Of a DNA stretch of 42,506 bases, positions 7,169 to 42,327 are shown one piece after another. The notes beneath the pieces are model-generated. The model had not been told where the DNA came from. It made no database searches and worked only from the letters and a program-made list of their open reading frames with translations. The DNA comes from Aeromicrobium sp. (GTDB lineage Bacteria; Actinomycetota; Coriobacteriia; Anaerosomatales; Anaerosomataceae), in the NCBI GenBank assembly GCA_015351705.1, contig JADIIM010000008.1, positions 1 to 42,506 of the forward strand. The letters are read 5' to 3'. Each line of letters starts with the position of its first letter. Position 1 is the stretch's first letter. The position numbers and the translations under genes are program-made.

Positions 7169-7252
7169 CGGCGACGCTGCCCGGTTCCCTCAGTCCATGT
7201 GCTACCGTATCGTGCGCACCATCGTCCCACCGATAAGGAGCGGCCCCGCCCG

Positions 7253-8476
7253 ATGCGCGTCCTCTACCTCCATCAGTTCTTCGCGACCCGGGAATCATCG
7301 CTCGGCCTGATCCGCAGCTACGAGTTCTCGCGGCGCATGGTCCAGCGTGGTGACGAGGTCACGGTCGTCACCAGCAGCTCCCGGCTGCCGGAGGACTACG
7401 ACCGCGCGGTCTTCGCCGAGGGGGAGATCGACGGCATCCGCATCCGTTCGGTCAGGGTGCGCTACGCCAACCAGATGGGCTACGCGCGCCGCATGTGGTC
7501 GTTCATCCTGTTCACCGTGGGCGCCACATGGCTTGCGGCCACAGCGGGCAAGCACGACGTCGTCGTGGCCACCTCCACACCGCTCACGGTGGGCATCCCC
7601 GGTTGGATCGCAGCCGCGCTGACCCGCACGCCGTTCGTCTTCGAGGTGCGCGACCTGTGGCCGGAGGCCGCCATCCAGATGGGCGCCCTCTCGCGCACAG
7701 GCCCTATCGCCCGAATCGCAAAGTGGCTCGAGCGGTTCTTGTACCGGCGCGCACACTCGGTCATCGCCCTGTCACCCGGCATGGTGGCCGGAGTGATCGC
7801 CGAGGGCACCGAGCCCGAACGCGTGCACATGATCCCCAACTGCTCCGACCTCGACCTGTTCCACCCCGGCGGGAAGGACCCTGAGCTCGTGGAGCGCTAC
7901 GGCCTCGATGGGGCGTTCGTGGTGGGCTATGCAGGTGCCATCGGCCCGTCGAACGCGGTCGAGGCGCACGTGCCGGAAGCCGCCCGTATCCTGGAGGAGC
8001 GCGGGCGGACGGATATCGTCTTCCTCATCGCTGGCGACGGCAAGTGCCTTGACGAGGTGCGCCGTCTGACCGAGGGCCGCACGAACGTGCTGCTCGTGGG
8101 GTCGCTGCCCAAGCGCGAGGTCCCCCGGCTCACCCGCACGGCCGATGTGCTGATGACGCTCTTCGCCGACGTGCCGATCCTCGCCACGAACTCGCCCAAT
8201 AAGTTCTTCGACGCGCTCGCGTCGGGCCGTCCCGTGATCGTGAACCAGCCCGGCTGGACCCGCGAACTCGTTGAGACCCACGACGCCGGCATCCACATCC
8301 CGGTTGGTGACGGACGCGCGCTCGCCGATGCGGTCGAGCGGCTCGCGGACGACCGCGCGCTCACCGCGCGGATGGGAGCCAACGCACGTCGGCTCGCCGA
8401 GGACGAGTTCGACCGCGACGCCCAGGCGCTCAGGTTCATCGCGGCGCTCGAGGAGGCCGCAGCCGCGCGCGCGTGA
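7253..8476 (+). CDS. Glycosyltransferase family 4, WbuB/WcaI-like
   Basis: A 407-residue enzyme beginning MRVLYLHQFFATRESSLGLIR. It has hydrophobic patches near residues 80-125 (FILFTVGATWLAATAG, GIPGWIAAALTRTPFVF) and an EVRDLWPEAAIQMGAL segment, all typical of the WbuB-like GT4 branch that acts on membrane-bound acceptors. The donor domain shows MIPNCSDLDLF, GYAGAIGPSNAVE and NKFFDALASGRPVIVN. The ATG at 7253 follows AAGGAG at 7235-7240; an in-frame ATG at 7199 would add 18 unconserved residues. It is 84 nt downstream of the previous glycosyltransferase, probably in the same transcript, and convergent with the LCP gene. Confidence 0.88.
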   Translation: MRVLYLHQFFATRESSLGLIRSYEFSRRMVQRGDEVTVVTSSSRLPEDYDRAVFAEGEIDGIRIRSVRVRYANQMGYARRMWSFILFTVGATWLAATAGKHDVVVATSTPLTVGIPGWIAAALTRTPFVFEVRDLWPEAAIQMGALSRTGPIARIAKWLERFLYRRAHSVIALSPGMVAGVIAEGTEPERVHMIPNCSDLDLFHPGGKDPELVERYGLDGAFVVGYAGAIGPSNAVEAHVPEAARILEERGRTDIVFLIAGDGKCLDEVRRLTEGRTNVLLVGSLPKREVPRLTRTADVLMTLFADVPILATNSPNKFFDALASGRPVIVNQPGWTRELVETHDAGIHIPVGDGRALADAVERLADDRALTARMGANARRLAEDEFDRDAQALRFIAALEEAAAARA

Positions 8477-8492
8477 CGGCACGTCACCGCGC
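8469..8492. terminator. Bidirectional terminator hairpin 1 at a convergent junction
   Basis: GCGC-GTGAC (8469-8477) pairs with GTCAC-(C)-GCGC (8483-8492) around a 5-nt loop, with one bulged C. It overlaps the stop of the rightward glycosyltransferase and is followed on the plus strand by CTTCGTC rather than a T-run. Confidence 0.45.
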
Positions 8493-8496
8493 CTTC

Positions 8497-8516
8497 GTCA
8501 TCGGTCGCCCGATGAC
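8497..8516. terminator. Bidirectional terminator hairpin 2, TCGC tetraloop
   Basis: GTCATCGG (8497-8504) and CCGATGAC (8509-8516) form a perfect 8-bp stem closed by TCGC. It sits in the last codons and stop of the LCP gene, directly after hairpin 1. Confidence 0.45.
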
Positions 8517-9883
8517 ACCTCGTCCCAGGTCGCGTAGTCTTTGCCCACCACGACGAGGATGTCGCTGGTGAAGGCATACATGCCCCGGCTCTCGACCACG
8601 CGCGCCTTGGGCAGTGCGGCCGCGATCTGCTGCGCCGCCTCCCGGTCGGTCGCGTACACGACGAGCGTCTCCTCGTAGACGAACTGGTTCGCGTTGCCCA
8701 CCTCGCCCACGGCATACCCCGCCGACCGGAGTATCCCGGCGGCTGTGGCGGCACTCCCCTCGATGCCGGCGCCGTTACGCACCGTGACCGAGACCGTCGC
8801 GGGGTCGATCACACCCGCACCGACGGTCGATGTGTCCTCGAACGAACGGCCCTCCATCATCGCCGAGATCAAGAACTCCTTCTGCTCCTGGTCGGTCCAC
8901 ACGTACGGGCTGCGCCACTCGCCGATGAGCGTGGCGGTCTCGATGTTGGCGCTGCCGATGTCGCGAAGCGCATCGCCGACCTCGATCATGTCGCCCACCG
9001 ACATGTCGGTGGACATGTACTCGGCCATACCGCGTACGATCGAGGGCACCTTGACGACGTTTCCGGCCTTGGCGAACTGGTCGGCGAGCGCCTTGAAGAA
9101 CTGCTGCTGGTGCTTCATGCGGGTGAAGTCGGCGTCAGGGAAGTCGCGGCTGCGCACGAACGTGAGCGCGTGCTCCCCGTCGAGCAGCTGGTAGCCGGGT
9201 TCGATGCGCTTGGCGCGAAGGCCGGGGCTGTGGCTCGCGGCCTTCCAGTCATCGATCTCGACGTCGACGTCGATCCACACACCGCCCACAGCGTCCACCA
9301 CATGCTGGAAACCGGTGAAGTCGATGCTCATGTAGTGGTTGATCGGGATGCCGAGCAAGTCGCGCACGGTCTCCACCATGAGCGACGGGCCGCCGTAGAA
9401 GTTCGCCGCGTTGATCTTCTGCGTCCCGTGCCCCGGGATCTCTGCACGTGTGTCGCGCGGGATGGACAGCAGCCACACCTTGTTCGCCTCGACGTCGACA
9501 CGCGCCACGATGATCGTGTCCGCGCGGGCATCGGTCTCCCACGGCCGCTGATCGCTTCCGAGGAACAGGATCGTGAACGGCTGGCGCTTCTCACGCTTCT
9601 CAAGCACCTTGGACAGGCTCTCGTCGATGCCCGGCTGACGGTTCATCGTCTGGCCCGCGAGATGCAGCTGGTAGTACGCCCAGGCACCGCTACTGACGAC
9701 CGCCAGTAAGACGACGAGCACGGTGCCGAGAGCGATGCGCTTGACCAGCCGCCTGCGACGCTCCCGATGCACGCGCATGCGCGGCGAGCGCTCGACTATC
9801 CCGTTCGAGCGTCCCGCACGCCGGGAACGCGTCGGCGCGTCGGCGCTGCGCATCCCCCGTCGGTTTCCTGAGTGTCGTCCCAT
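8498..9883 (-). CDS. LytR-CpsA-Psr (LCP) family glycopolymer ligase with LytR_C domain
   Basis: A 461-residue single-pass membrane protein. Residues 1-48 are a basic cytoplasmic tail and 50-72 the membrane segment. The LCP domain (about 103-250) has TILFLGSDQRP, RADTIIVARVD, SIPRDTRAEI (140-149), KINAANFYGG and FVRSRDFPDADFTR, which carry the conserved Asp and Arg residues that bind the lipid pyrophosphate. Residues about 360-445 form a LytR_C domain. LCP enzymes transfer undecaprenyl-linked polymers onto peptidoglycan outside the cell. It starts 8 nt after the wbpI-like gene and is the last gene of that operon, which suggests it attaches the polymer containing that sugar. Confidence 0.93.
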   Translation of the reverse strand: MGRHSGNRRGMRSADAPTRSRRAGRSNGIVERSPRMRVHRERRRRLVKRIALGTVLVVLLAVVSSGAWAYYQLHLAGQTMNRQPGIDESLSKVLEKREKRQPFTILFLGSDQRPWETDARADTIIVARVDVEANKVWLLSIPRDTRAEIPGHGTQKINAANFYGGPSLMVETVRDLLGIPINHYMSIDFTGFQHVVDAVGGVWIDVDVEIDDWKAASHSPGLRAKRIEPGYQLLDGEHALTFVRSRDFPDADFTRMKHQQQFFKALADQFAKAGNVVKVPSIVRGMAEYMSTDMSVGDMIEVGDALRDIGSANIETATLIGEWRSPYVWTDQEQKEFLISAMMEGRSFEDTSTVGAGVIDPATVSVTVRNGAGIEGSAATAAGILRSAGYAVGEVGNANQFVYEETLVVYATDREAAQQIAAALPKARVVESRGMYAFTSDILVVVGKDYATWDEVSSGDR

Positions 9884-35789: not shown

Positions 35790-37138
<1,349 letters not shown>

Positions 37139-37142
<4 letters not shown>

Positions 37143-37801
37143 GCGTTCTTCACCTTCTCCCAGTCCGCGAGGAACGCCTCGAGGCCGCGGTCGGTGAGCG
37201 GGTGCTTCACCAGCTTCTCGAGAACGCCGAATGGCACGGTGGCGATGTCGGCGCCCATCAGGGCAGCGGCCACGACGTGCTGGTTATGCCGCACCGAAGC
37301 GGCGATCACCTCGACCTGATGGCCGAAGTCATAGTTGCTGAGGGCGGCGACCATGTTGCCGAGGTGCTCGAGGCCGTCTTCGGAGATGTCGTCGAACCGG
37401 CCGATGAACGGGCTCACGTACCGTGCACCCGCACGGGCGGCCATGAGGGCCTGCGGCACGGTGAAGCACAACGTCATGTTCACATCGATGCCCCGCTCGG
37501 CGAGCGACTTGGTGGCGGCGAGTCCCTCGGGCATGACCGGGACCTTCACGACCACGTTGGGTGCGAGCGCAGCGAGTTCCTCGCCCTCGGCGACGATCTC
37601 GTCACGGACGAGGCCGACGGTCTCGGCCGAGACGGGCCCGTCACAGATCTCGCAGATACGCTGGATGTGGGCGTGGAAGTCGGCTAGGCGGCCGCCTTCG
37701 CGTGCGTACAGTGACGGATTGGTGGTCACGCCGGCGAGCACGCCCCACGACGCGGCCTCCTCGATCTCCCGCAGGTTCGCGGTGTCCAGGAAGAACTTCA
37801 T
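37139..37801 (-). CDS. Small transaldolase (TalC/MipB family)
   Basis: A 220-residue TIM-barrel aldolase. KFFLDTANLREI, GVTTNPSLYA, VVVKVPVMPEG (Schiff-base Lys86), NMTLCFTVPQALMAARAGARYVSPFIGRFDD and TVPFGVLEKLVKHPLTDRG match the short transaldolase / fructose-6-P aldolase family; YVSPFIGR-x-DD favours transaldolase. It would exchange three-carbon units in the pentose phosphate pathway. ATG directly follows the stop of the 2-phosphoglycerate kinase gene and its stop overlaps rho. Confidence 0.93.
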
Positions 37802-38755
37802 CTACACCTCGTCCTCTCCTTCGGCTGGCGAATGCCAGATCCGTGCGACCTCCTCGTCTTGACGGATCACCGTCTCGACGATCAACTCCAACACCTCGGC
37901 CACCGTCTGGTCGAGATGGTGGCTGTAGACGACCGGGATGCCGTGCTCGGCGGCCAGGTCCTCGATATAACGTCCGAGCAGCCGGATGTTCTCGAAGTTC
38001 GCCCGGTAACGCTCGAACGGTCGCGTCCCTTCGGTCTGCACCTCGCGGATGTAGAAGTGGCTGCGGTGCGCCTCTTCGTTGTCCACCCCGATGAGGATCT
38101 GCACGACCGACGCGTTTGTGAACTGGGAAGGCTCGATATACCCCGGCGCCACATGAACGCCCTCGAGGACCATGCTCACGCCTTCGAGCACCGCACGTTC
38201 GATGATGGCCTTCATGCCGGTGGCCACGGCAGCCGCCTGCTCGCGGAATCCGACGATGACGGGGCTGGCTCCATGGGGAACGGGGACCCTCAGTCCGCGC
38301 CACGCGTTGAACGAGCTCTCGTAGATCGCGGGCATGAGGTCACGAGAGAAGATACCACGCATGACCTCACGGATGCTATCCGTCGAGACGATTCGGGTGA
38401 TGCCGAGCCGGTGAGCCACTTCCGTGGCGATGGTGGACTTGCCCACACCGGTGGTGCCGCCCACGAGCACGATGAGCGGCCGGTCGGACTTCGAGATCTC
38501 GTTCAGTCGCACGTACCGGGCAGCCGTCTCGGGCCCGGCGGACTCGGCGAGCACGCTCGCGGCGGTCTGCTGCAGCTCGGCGAGCGTGACCTCGAAGCGG
38601 CCGGCGGTCCGCAACTCGTCTTGCACGCGCTGCGCCGCGGCGTACGCGCGGCCGGGGCCGAGGCCGGTCGCGGTGAAGGACTGCGCGAGCAGCCCCTTGC
38701 TCATGGGCAGACCGTGCTTCTGGTCCTTGATGATGATGGGCGGGTTGGTCGGCAT
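37802..38755 (-). CDS. 2-phosphoglycerate kinase homologue with ATP-cone-like N-terminus
   Basis: A 317-residue P-loop kinase. Residues 7-80 (IIIKDQKHGLPMSKGLLAQSF, then GLGPGRAYAAAQRVQDEL) resemble an ATP-cone, a nucleotide-sensing module. The kinase core begins IVLVGGTTGVGKST (P-loop 99-108), followed by RIVSTDSIREVMR and VLEGVHVAPGYI. Domain order and length match archaeal 2-phosphoglycerate kinases, which make 2,3-diphosphoglycerate. The next upstream gene codes the enzyme that closes the ring of that product. ATG at 38755 is chosen: it shares a base with the upstream stop (TGATG) and has GGGAGGGG 6 nt before it; a GTG one codon earlier is possible. Activity is inferred from family and neighbour. 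Confidence 0.85.
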   Translation of the reverse strand: MPTNPPIIIKDQKHGLPMSKGLLAQSFTATGLGPGRAYAAAQRVQDELRTAGRFEVTLAELQQTAASVLAESAGPETAARYVRLNEISKSDRPLIVLVGGTTGVGKSTIATEVAHRLGITRIVSTDSIREVMRGIFSRDLMPAIYESSFNAWRGLRVPVPHGASPVIVGFREQAAAVATGMKAIIERAVLEGVSMVLEGVHVAPGYIEPSQFTNASVVQILIGVDNEEAHRSHFYIREVQTEGTRPFERYRANFENIRLLGRYIEDLAAEHGIPVVYSHHLDQTVAEVLELIVETVIRQDEEVARIWHSPAEGEDEV

Positions 38756-40098
38756 CACGCACCCCTCCCGGCACGACGCTCAAGCGCACGGGCCACCGAA
38801 CGGTCGATGAGCGCGTCCAGGTCTCCCTGGCCGGTCACCACCGGCTCGTTATCACACAGCACCGTGGGCACACCGGCCTCAGCGCCTGCCGCCGCGACCA
38901 CATCGATCGCGGCGGCTTTGAGCTCGGTGAGCAGCAGGTCATAACGGCCGGCCCACGTGCGCATGTCCTCGCGCAGCCGTGTCCGGTCCGACAGGTGCGG
39001 GCTTGCGGCCACGACCTCGCATCCGTGCTCCCGCTCGAGGAACGCCGACAGCTTCGGCAGCACGCCGGCCGGCGCAGTGGTGGCGAAGAACACCCGCTTA
39101 CCACGCACGTCTCCGATGGGACGAGGCCGGAAGGTGGTGAGGGCGATCGGCACGTCCTCGCGGTGCGCCCTGATCGCCGAGACAAGATCGGCGATCTCCT
39201 CCGCGGTCGCGGTGGGCTCCTCGGCGCCGGCCACGATCACGGCGTCGGCGATGGCCAGGCGATACGGCCCGAAGTGGTCGCGGACGTACGGTACGCCCTG
39301 ACCCGCGCCGACGATGAGCACCGTCGCGTCGGCGTGGACCGGCGGGATGGCCGCCCCGGAGCCCTCGAGCACGAGCAGCTCCTTGCCGAGCGTGTCCGCG
39401 AGCCGGGCGCCTTCCGGCACGTTCGAGAAGAACGTCTCTCCCGCCAGACCACCTCCACAGCGGCGGCAGCCGACCGTCGTCACGCGGCTCATCACGGCAT
39501 CCTCGTAGTTGTCCGAGGACGCGTGCTTGCCCTGCATCGCGAGCGCGAGCAGGTCCTCGGTCGTGAGCGAGACCTCGTCGCCGCGGATGAGCTCCGGCTC
39601 GGCCGGTCCTCCCCTGCCCATGGCGAGCACGACGATGTCTCGCCCGCTGGCCTTCAGGTGACGCGCCACATACGCCGAGATGCCGGTCTTGCCGACGCGC
39701 TTGCCCGTGCCGATGATCGCGAGCGTGGGCGTATCCGTCACGAGCGACGTACGCGGCGGCTCGAACGAGAAGTCCGCGCCACGGTAGGCCACGCCGGCGG
39801 CGAGCGCCGCGCTCGCGAGCTCGAAGCGCGCCTCGGGCGTCACGACCGGCTCGTCAGAGAGGTCGACCGCCACGTCCGGCGCGAAGCGTCCGATCGCCTC
39901 GGCCAGCGCCGCCACGCGGTCAGCGCCCCGCACGACGGGCACCCCGTACACGTCCTGGCTCGCCTCGGCGTCCACCTTCTCGGTGCCACCGATGAACACC
40001 GCGCCCACCACATCGTGCTCCGAGGCGAGGCGCTCGAGGGCGAAGCGCACCACGGGCGGATAGTGCTCGCCGTCGATGAGCGCGATCGCCCGGCTCAC
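38755..40098 (-). CDS. cpgS: Cyclic 2,3-diphosphoglycerate synthetase homologue
   Basis: A 447-residue protein close in size to the methanogen enzyme that joins the two phosphates of 2,3-diphosphoglycerate into an intramolecular pyrophosphate using ATP. The N-terminal part (IALIDGEHYPPVVRFALERL, VFIGGTEKVD, VYGVPVV) is followed by LAIIGTGKRVGKTGISAYVARHL, a P-loop (GTGKRVGKT, 130-138), then a Cys pair (VGCRRCGGG) and LLVLEGSGAAIPPVHADAT. GTG at 40098 overlaps the stop of the phosphoesterase (GTGA). I recognise the family from memory of its pattern; a profile search would settle it. Confidence 0.83.
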   Translation of the reverse strand: MSRAIALIDGEHYPPVVRFALERLASEHDVVGAVFIGGTEKVDAEASQDVYGVPVVRGADRVAALAEAIGRFAPDVAVDLSDEPVVTPEARFELASAALAAGVAYRGADFSFEPPRTSLVTDTPTLAIIGTGKRVGKTGISAYVARHLKASGRDIVVLAMGRGGPAEPELIRGDEVSLTTEDLLALAMQGKHASSDNYEDAVMSRVTTVGCRRCGGGLAGETFFSNVPEGARLADTLGKELLVLEGSGAAIPPVHADATVLIVGAGQGVPYVRDHFGPYRLAIADAVIVAGAEEPTATAEEIADLVSAIRAHREDVPIALTTFRPRPIGDVRGKRVFFATTAPAGVLPKLSAFLEREHGCEVVAASPHLSDRTRLREDMRTWAGRYDLLLTELKAAAIDVVAAAGAEAGVPTVLCDNEPVVTGQGDLDALIDRSVARALERRAGRGA

Positions 40099-40959: not shown

Positions 40960-42327
40960 CTATTCTTTCCCCAGACCAGGACGGGTCGTCAAGCCCCGTT
41001 CTGCCCGCACGACCGCCGCGAGCAGGCCCGCCATGAGCCACGCAAGCTCGAAGTACAGGAAGTACTGGAAGAACGAGCCCACCCCGACCGCCACCAGCCC
41101 TGCCGTGGCGACGCGTCCCGACACCGAGCCGAGGCGGCGGACCCGGAGCATACTCGCCACCCCTGCGGTGAACACCGCGCCGAGCGCGACGACTCCCATG
41201 AACCCCGTCTCGGCAACCAGCGCGAGCGGTACCTGGTGCGGGTGGGTGACTCCGGGCTCGGACCCCGGCAATGCGTAGTCAGGATAGGCGTCTTCGTACG
41301 CCTTGAGCCCGGTCCCGAAGACCGGCCGGTCGGCGATCATCGCGATCGATGAGCGCATCATGAGGACGCGAGTGGCGTTCGAAGAGTCCGTGTCGGCGTC
41401 GAGGATCGATGAGATCCGGCCCGCAACCTCCCCGGGTCCGAGCAGGGCGGCTCCGACGATCACCCCCGCGATGCCGATGCCGATCACCGCGACCCGCAGG
41501 CGCGTGCCGCCCGTGACGAGCAGCGCCGCCATGCCGGCGACCACCGCCACCCACGCCGAGCGCGAGTACGTGATCACCACCGCACCGAGCGTGGCGAGCG
41601 CAGCAAGCAGCCAGGGCCACCACGGGCGGCGGGAACCCGCGATGGACAGGGCGGCCAGCGCCGCCAACGCCAGATGTGCGCCCAGGAAGTTGGGGTCCAG
41701 GTAGAAGCCCGCGGGCCTGATCCCCTCGGCCACGCCCCTGCCCGAGCGGTGGATCGAGCCGATGGCAACGTCAGGCGCGAGCCACTGGAAGAACGCGAGC
41801 GCGGCGAGAAGGCCGCCGGTGACCGCAAGTGCGGTCACTGCCCTGTCCTGGGCTTCCCGGTCGGACAGCAGCCGCGAGACGAGGAGTGCCGCCAGCCAGA
41901 GCATCGCAAGCCTGGCGATGTGCAGGGCCGTCTGGCCCGGATCGAGCGAGGTGGGCAGCGACCAGAGCCCGGCAAGGGGCAGCAGACCGAGCGCCCACTC
42001 GAGCCCGATGGGCGCCGAGGGCGTGCGGGCGCCGCCACGCACCGCTCGCAGCACGACAGCGAGCGCGGCACCGGCAAGCACCACGTGGAAGAGGCCCACG
42101 TGCGCGCCCGGGACCACACGAACGCCGTCTTTGAACGCGAGTGCCGCGAACAGGGCGGCCGCGACCCACGCGGGGCCGTCGCGGTGCGACAGCGTGGCCG
42201 CGGCCACAAGCACTGCGGCGACCACGAACCGCAACCAGGCGAGGGGGCCGCTCATCGGAACGAGGCACGCGAGCAGCGCGAGGACGGCGAGCATGGCGGT
42301 ACGGCGATGGTCCCCCGGGGCGCTCAT
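40960..42327 (-). CDS. Wzy/WaaL-like O-antigen polymerase or ligase family protein
   Basis: A 455-residue protein with about 11-12 hydrophobic helices. A large outer loop near residues 300-370 holds NATRVLMMRSSIAMIADRPVFGTGLKAYE and GVTHPHQVPLALVAETG, the Wzy_C pattern with the conserved His. RPAGFYLDPNFLGAHLALAAL is also typical. The family joins lipid-linked repeat units or transfers glycans outside the membrane. The ATG at 42327 overlaps the upstream gene's stop (ATGA). Polymerase and ligase cannot be told apart; the Wzx and TagO-like genes in the window favour a polymerase. Confidence 0.85.
   Translation of the reverse strand: MSAPGDHRRTAMLAVLALLACLVPMSGPLAWLRFVVAAVLVAAATLSHRDGPAWVAAALFAALAFKDGVRVVPGAHVGLFHVVLAGAALAVVLRAVRGGARTPSAPIGLEWALGLLPLAGLWSLPTSLDPGQTALHIARLAMLWLAALLVSRLLSDREAQDRAVTALAVTGGLLAALAFFQWLAPDVAIGSIHRSGRGVAEGIRPAGFYLDPNFLGAHLALAALAALSIAGSRRPWWPWLLAALATLGAVVITYSRSAWVAVVAGMAALLVTGGTRLRVAVIGIGIAGVIVGAALLGPGEVAGRISSILDADTDSSNATRVLMMRSSIAMIADRPVFGTGLKAYEDAYPDYALPGSEPGVTHPHQVPLALVAETGFMGVVALGAVFTAGVASMLRVRRLGSVSGRVATAGLVAVGVGSFFQYFLYFELAWLMAGLLAAVVRAERGLTTRPGLGKE

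Follow-up and report, generated by a model that had tools for sequence, protein, structure and literature searches.

On the minus strand of the window (the whole stretch of 42,506 nucleotides analysed here), three adjoining genes encode a calcineurin-like metallophosphoesterase (MPE), a cyclic 2,3-diphosphoglycerate (cDPG) synthetase homologue (cDPGS) and a 2-phosphoglycerate kinase homologue (2PGK), and on balance we consider it likely that they form a module that makes and breaks cDPG. The proposal draws on homology, active-site conservation, gene order and co-occurrence, from which we infer the substrates, products and role, above all that of the MPE. The sequence-only reading had described a complete two-step pathway encoded by a two-gene unit. 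Its gene assignments and the route from 2-phosphoglycerate through 2,3-diphosphoglycerate (2,3-DPG) to cDPG are well supported by profiles, residues and context, although the chemistry itself is a prediction; the pair is real, but the coupled run is longer and includes a third conserved gene, the MPE, that had been missed.

The source genome (2.07 Mb, 60 contigs, about 97% completeness; the window is contig 1) has Coriobacteriia metagenome-assembled genomes as its closest relatives by cDPGS. The gene order on the minus strand is MPE, cDPGS, 2PGK, a transaldolase-like gene and Rho, and the features are as follows.

40960-42327, minus strand: O-antigen ligase/Wzy_C-type membrane protein (PF04932), directly upstream of the MPE gene
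40898-40095, minus strand: metallophosphoesterase (MPE), calcineurin-like, 267 aa (PF00149, 65 bits, over cut-off)
40098-38755, minus strand: cDPGS, 447 aa, GTG start (421 bits to PDB 8ork/8oru)
38755-37802, minus strand: 2PGK homologue, 317 aa from ATG (NF008994, 326 bits; NF003259, 306 bits)
37139-37801, minus strand: transaldolase / fructose-6-phosphate aldolase-like protein, 220 aa (TIGR00875, 258 bits, over cut-off)
35790-37142, minus strand: transcription termination factor Rho, 450 aa (PF07497, 108 bits)

The MPE stop overlaps the cDPGS start (GTGA), the cDPGS stop and the 2PGK ATG overlap as TGATG, the 2PGK stop (TAG) is followed at once by the ATG of the transaldolase-like gene, and the latter shares 4 bases with Rho. 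With the GTG at 38758 as its start, 2PGK would be 318 aa long. The adjacent, overlapping cDPGS and 2PGK reading frames had been recognized earlier, and their coordinates, minus strand and TGATG junction were borne out, as were the intact P-loops in both proteins (GTGKRVGKT in cDPGS, GGTTGVGKST in 2PGK). From MPE to Rho, the overlapping or abutting run looks like a translationally coupled operon, and the arrangement is not a product of chance, since it is kept in dozens of other genomes. The transaldolase-like gene frequently adjoins 2PGK in relatives and is probably part of the neighbourhood, outside the cDPG module; Rho is a conserved neighbour downstream of the cluster and also lies outside the module. 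In Rubrobacter and related loci such as L059 and L066, a GlpX-like fructose-1,6-bisphosphatase, recognized by eye, apparently sits between the cluster and Rho, in the position taken by the transaldolase-like gene in Coriobacteriia. Genes resembling the PF04932 protein were also seen upstream in several related loci.

In 396 genomes sampled evenly across the Actinomycetota, we found cDPGS in 200, MPE in 198, 2PGK in 197 and all three in 187. cDPGS and MPE occurred together in 193 genomes, cDPGS without MPE in 7, MPE without cDPGS in 5 and neither in 191; 2PGK accompanied cDPGS in 194 genomes and was found without it in 3. Co-occurrence was judged by this pattern and not by a significance test, because shared ancestry inflates any p-value. 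Since about half of the genomes surveyed carry the genes, the rarity implied by the sequence-only reading did not hold up, and the pair is not peculiar to a single genome. The genomes with the MPE subfamily and no detected cDPGS (G067, G233, G280, G311 and G357) could be explained by paralogues or incomplete assemblies. Within the window's class, cDPGS was absent from the listed genomes outside the window's own family.

A scan of genome contigs recovered 80 cDPGS loci from Coriobacteriia, Aquicultor, Gaiellales, Rubrobacter, other Actinomycetota and one Theionarchaeon. In bacterial loci where position could be tested, the gene immediately upstream of cDPGS, on the same strand, is MPE in 110 of 118 (74/78 in the first set of loci; 36/40 in a second set drawn from many family codes to reduce bias, with some families repeated and a few places in both sets), and 2PGK lies directly downstream in 103 of 115 (66/76 and 37/39, respectively). 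In Rubrobacter loci, MPE stays with cDPGS where 2PGK is not adjacent; in the one Rubrobacter genome checked, that of R. taiwanensis, 2PGK homologues are encoded elsewhere in the genome.

The window cDPGS probably makes cDPG. It matches the Methanothermus fervidus enzyme (PDB 8ork/8oru) over residues 3-435 of 447 (E = 3.7e-125, 421 bits), a full-length, two-domain homology that includes the N-terminal domain and upholds the assignment made from the DNA, and it scores 357 bits against a second solved archaeal cDPGS (PDB 9sxb); Pfam and NCBIfam held no good model for it. We took the 2,3-DPG, Mg and nucleotide ligands from the published structure, in which E45 (from the partner subunit), K145 and R146 hold 2,3-DPG (PMC10690619), and followed them through an alignment of 150 sequences. 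The published P335, which is F335 in the numbering used here, could not be placed and was left out. All 11 placeable residues are identical in the window protein: E45, K46, K145, R146, K149, T150, D208, E404 and K406 are the same in 112/112 bacterial and 35/35 archaeal rows, while nearly all bacterial rows retain E305 and T353.

The neighbouring kinase homologue probably makes 2,3-DPG, judging by its profile matches, conserved residues and gene context. NF008994 (326 bits) and NF003259 (306 bits) are the best of all NCBIfam models for this protein but fall below their curated equivalog cut-offs (603 and 343 bits); we therefore call it a 2PGK homologue, as had been done before, and not a curated member of the family. 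An N-terminus resembling an ATP-cone (23.3 bits, under the cut-off of 25.8) precedes the P-loop kinase domain. Among 27 bacterial and archaeal 2PGK sequences, 29 columns are invariant, with the P-loop, TD..R and EG.H motifs among them and T125, D126, R129, R133, R187, E198, H201 and R237 among the residues. The predicted structure is a confident P-loop kinase model (pLDDT 91.7) that matches P-loop nucleotide and small-molecule kinases with modest TM-scores, and the protein is 34-39% identical to the kinases from the corresponding archaeal gene pairs. R. taiwanensis has two unlinked 2PGK homologues (L083/L179 and L090/L180): one passes the NF003259 cut-off at 348 bits and has the sequence GGATGVGTST, in which T replaces the usual P-loop lysine, and the weaker one reads GGTTGSGKTT.

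The kinase might instead supply 2,3-bisphosphoglycerate (2,3-BPG), the known cofactor of phosphoglycerate mutase (dPGM), with cDPGS and MPE serving only to drain or regulate it, and Thermus and Deinobacterium control genomes do match the 2PGK family. We regard this as highly improbable. Cofactor supply is unlikely in the source genome because a strong cofactor-independent mutase (iPGM; TIGR01307, 699 bits, over cut-off) is encoded there and nothing scores above the dPGM cut-off; the occurrence of 2PGK almost always with cDPGS in the survey also speaks against it.

It is unlikely, too, that the bacterial enzymes act on a different, related bisphosphorylated acid and yield a product other than cDPG. 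The 2PGK scores below the curated cut-offs would fit such a shift, kinases related to 2PGK act on other substrates (for example, mevalonate-3-phosphate 5-kinase), and cDPG has never been detected in Thermococcales despite their synthetase (PMC7511516). However, the residues of cDPGS that hold 2,3-DPG, together with the Mg/ATP residues, are invariant from methanogen to bacterium, and cDPGS is coupled to the kinase of the preceding step.

The MPE carries the metal motifs DxH, GD, GNHD, H and GHxH. Across 24 sequences, D14, H16, D47, N78, H79, H146-H148, H184 and H186 are invariant, as are three arginines outside the metal motifs (R82, R159 and R210), and the subfamily has conserved motifs of its own, GNHD[SA]RNVG and HHHLxPxP. 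In its predicted model (pLDDT 83), the MPE looks like a soluble single-domain protein, with the phosphodiesterase Rv0805 and the glycerophosphodiesterase GpdQ as nearest solved folds.

Archaea also link these genes. MPE homologues, tandem or fused, lie beside 2PGK-cDPGS in the Theionarchaeon and in many genomes of the same phylum, convergent with the pair in some loci and co-directional in others; one copy is a strong match and the other weak, and the weak copy in the Theionarchaea locus L071 reads GPRD for GNHD. In that locus, cDPGS-2PGK is followed by a small protein, assigned by eye as CBS-like, and a fused two-domain phosphoesterase (7188-7634 and 7654-9249), whose second domain is the one with GPRD. 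MPE was not found nearby in archaeal loci L161-L163, L174 and L176-L178.

We lean slightly towards cDPG or 2,3-DPG as the substrate of the MPE. Judged by genomic context, a ring-opening cDPG hydrolase would be its simplest reading, and a 2,3-DPG phosphatase is also possible. That cDPGS and 2PGK make cDPG while a merely co-inherited MPE acts on another substrate, such as a cyclic nucleotide, is a less probable but serious alternative, given that Rv0805, a class III cyclic-nucleotide phosphodiesterase, is the best match of the MPE in both sequence and fold. That match amounts to only 53 bits, however, and MPE occurs with cDPGS in nearly all carriers surveyed, in overlapping genes. The linkage recurs in archaea, where the gene order differs, and it persists in the Rubrobacter loci that have no adjacent 2PGK.

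In the proposed scheme, 2PGK would use ATP to phosphorylate 2-phosphoglycerate to 2,3-DPG, and cDPGS would consume another ATP in activating the 2-phosphate and forming the cyclic phosphoanhydride. Opening of the cDPG ring, or removal of phosphate from 2,3-DPG, would fall to the coupled dinuclear MPE, a step that would send carbon and phosphate back to gluconeogenesis.

cDPGS appears to be an old constituent of the phylum. In a quick, unrooted tree of 87 rows, whose deep branches are weak, one branch with 85% support separates bacteria from archaea, M. fervidus falls on the archaeal side, and many actinobacterial families form groups of their own. This topology suggests long residence in Actinomycetota, with losses, rather than recent transfer, and the quick tree, with its single split at only 85% support, gives no sign of recent acquisition from archaea. 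We also rejected a mobile element or virus as carrier, as cDPGS had no match in plasmids or viral contigs. In the archaeal phylum that contains L071, 91 of 115 genomes carry cDPGS.

In the paper that reported the structure, cDPG and its synthetase are confined to hyperthermophilic methanogens (PMC10690619). This was already too narrow, because the synthetase has been noted in Thermococcales genome papers (PMC4890121; PMC7511516) and in thermophilic ammonia-oxidising archaea (PMC5797428; PMC7554672). Our literature search, which took in few subscription journals, found no report of cDPGS in Actinomycetota or of cDPG being sought in these actinobacteria, and no paper treating both cDPG and Rubrobacter; database annotations of actinobacterial cDPGS-type proteins may well exist. 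In a study of the solutes of Rubrobacter, the compounds quantified were trehalose, mannosylglycerate and DIP, with no mention of diphosphoglycerate (PMC3505630).

The sequence-only reading had described cDPG as a solute, protein stabiliser and phosphate store. Such roles do not follow from the genes, because Thermococcales with the synthetase show no detected cDPG (PMC7511516). Bulk production for heat protection or as an osmolyte, on the model of hyperthermophilic methanogens, would be in keeping with enzymes shared with M. fervidus and with thermophilic carriers such as Rubrobacter taiwanensis strain Yellowstone, but we find it improbable. Carriers also include records titled as palsa, sediment and groundwater isolates and extend to about half of the sampled phylum; these sources and the Thermococcales result make heat protection unlikely as a general role. 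In addition, salt has little effect on the Methanothermobacter cDPG pool, whose turnover is fast (PMC1224877). Because synthesis and hydrolysis would be co-encoded and Methanothermobacter turnover is fast, a turned-over store or regulatory metabolite fits best: the product of the module is most likely a turned-over pool that stores phosphate and carbon or has a regulatory function, rather than a bulk thermoprotectant. More tentatively, cDPG may be an overlooked regulated metabolite, a phosphate/carbon store or signal, of many Actinomycetota and several archaeal groups, with the MPE as its dedicated hydrolase. If the actinobacterial enzymes work as predicted, cDPG is a compound of soil and sediment bacteria as well, heat protection is not its general role, and its function becomes testable in culturable organisms, for example Rubrobacter.

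Among known systems, the M. fervidus cDPGS (PDB 8ork/8oru; PMC10690619) is the closest counterpart, alike over its full length and in all tested ligand and metal residues, whereas window-type enzymes are bacterial, often come from cool habitats and are encoded by a gene that overlaps a phosphoesterase gene. The cDPGS of PDB 9sxb keeps the same residues except for E305, which is D, and falls on the archaeal side of the tree, grouped with sequences from the phylum of L071, with the bacteria on the other side. The 2PGK resembles NF003259 (PRK04220) and NF008994 (PRK12337) in its ATP-cone-like N-terminus and P-loop, and these are its best-scoring models, but it lies under both cut-offs. Rv0805 and GpdQ share the fold and metal motifs of the MPE but only about 20% identity, and the MPE has its own subfamily motifs and another gene context. 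The reaction proposed for the MPE has a precedent in the cDPG hydrolase activity of Methanothermobacter thermautotrophicus, which is membrane-bound (PMC1224877), whereas the window MPE looks soluble. We found no gene assigned to that activity in the available papers, and the linked MPE gene is a concrete candidate for the breakdown of cDPG.
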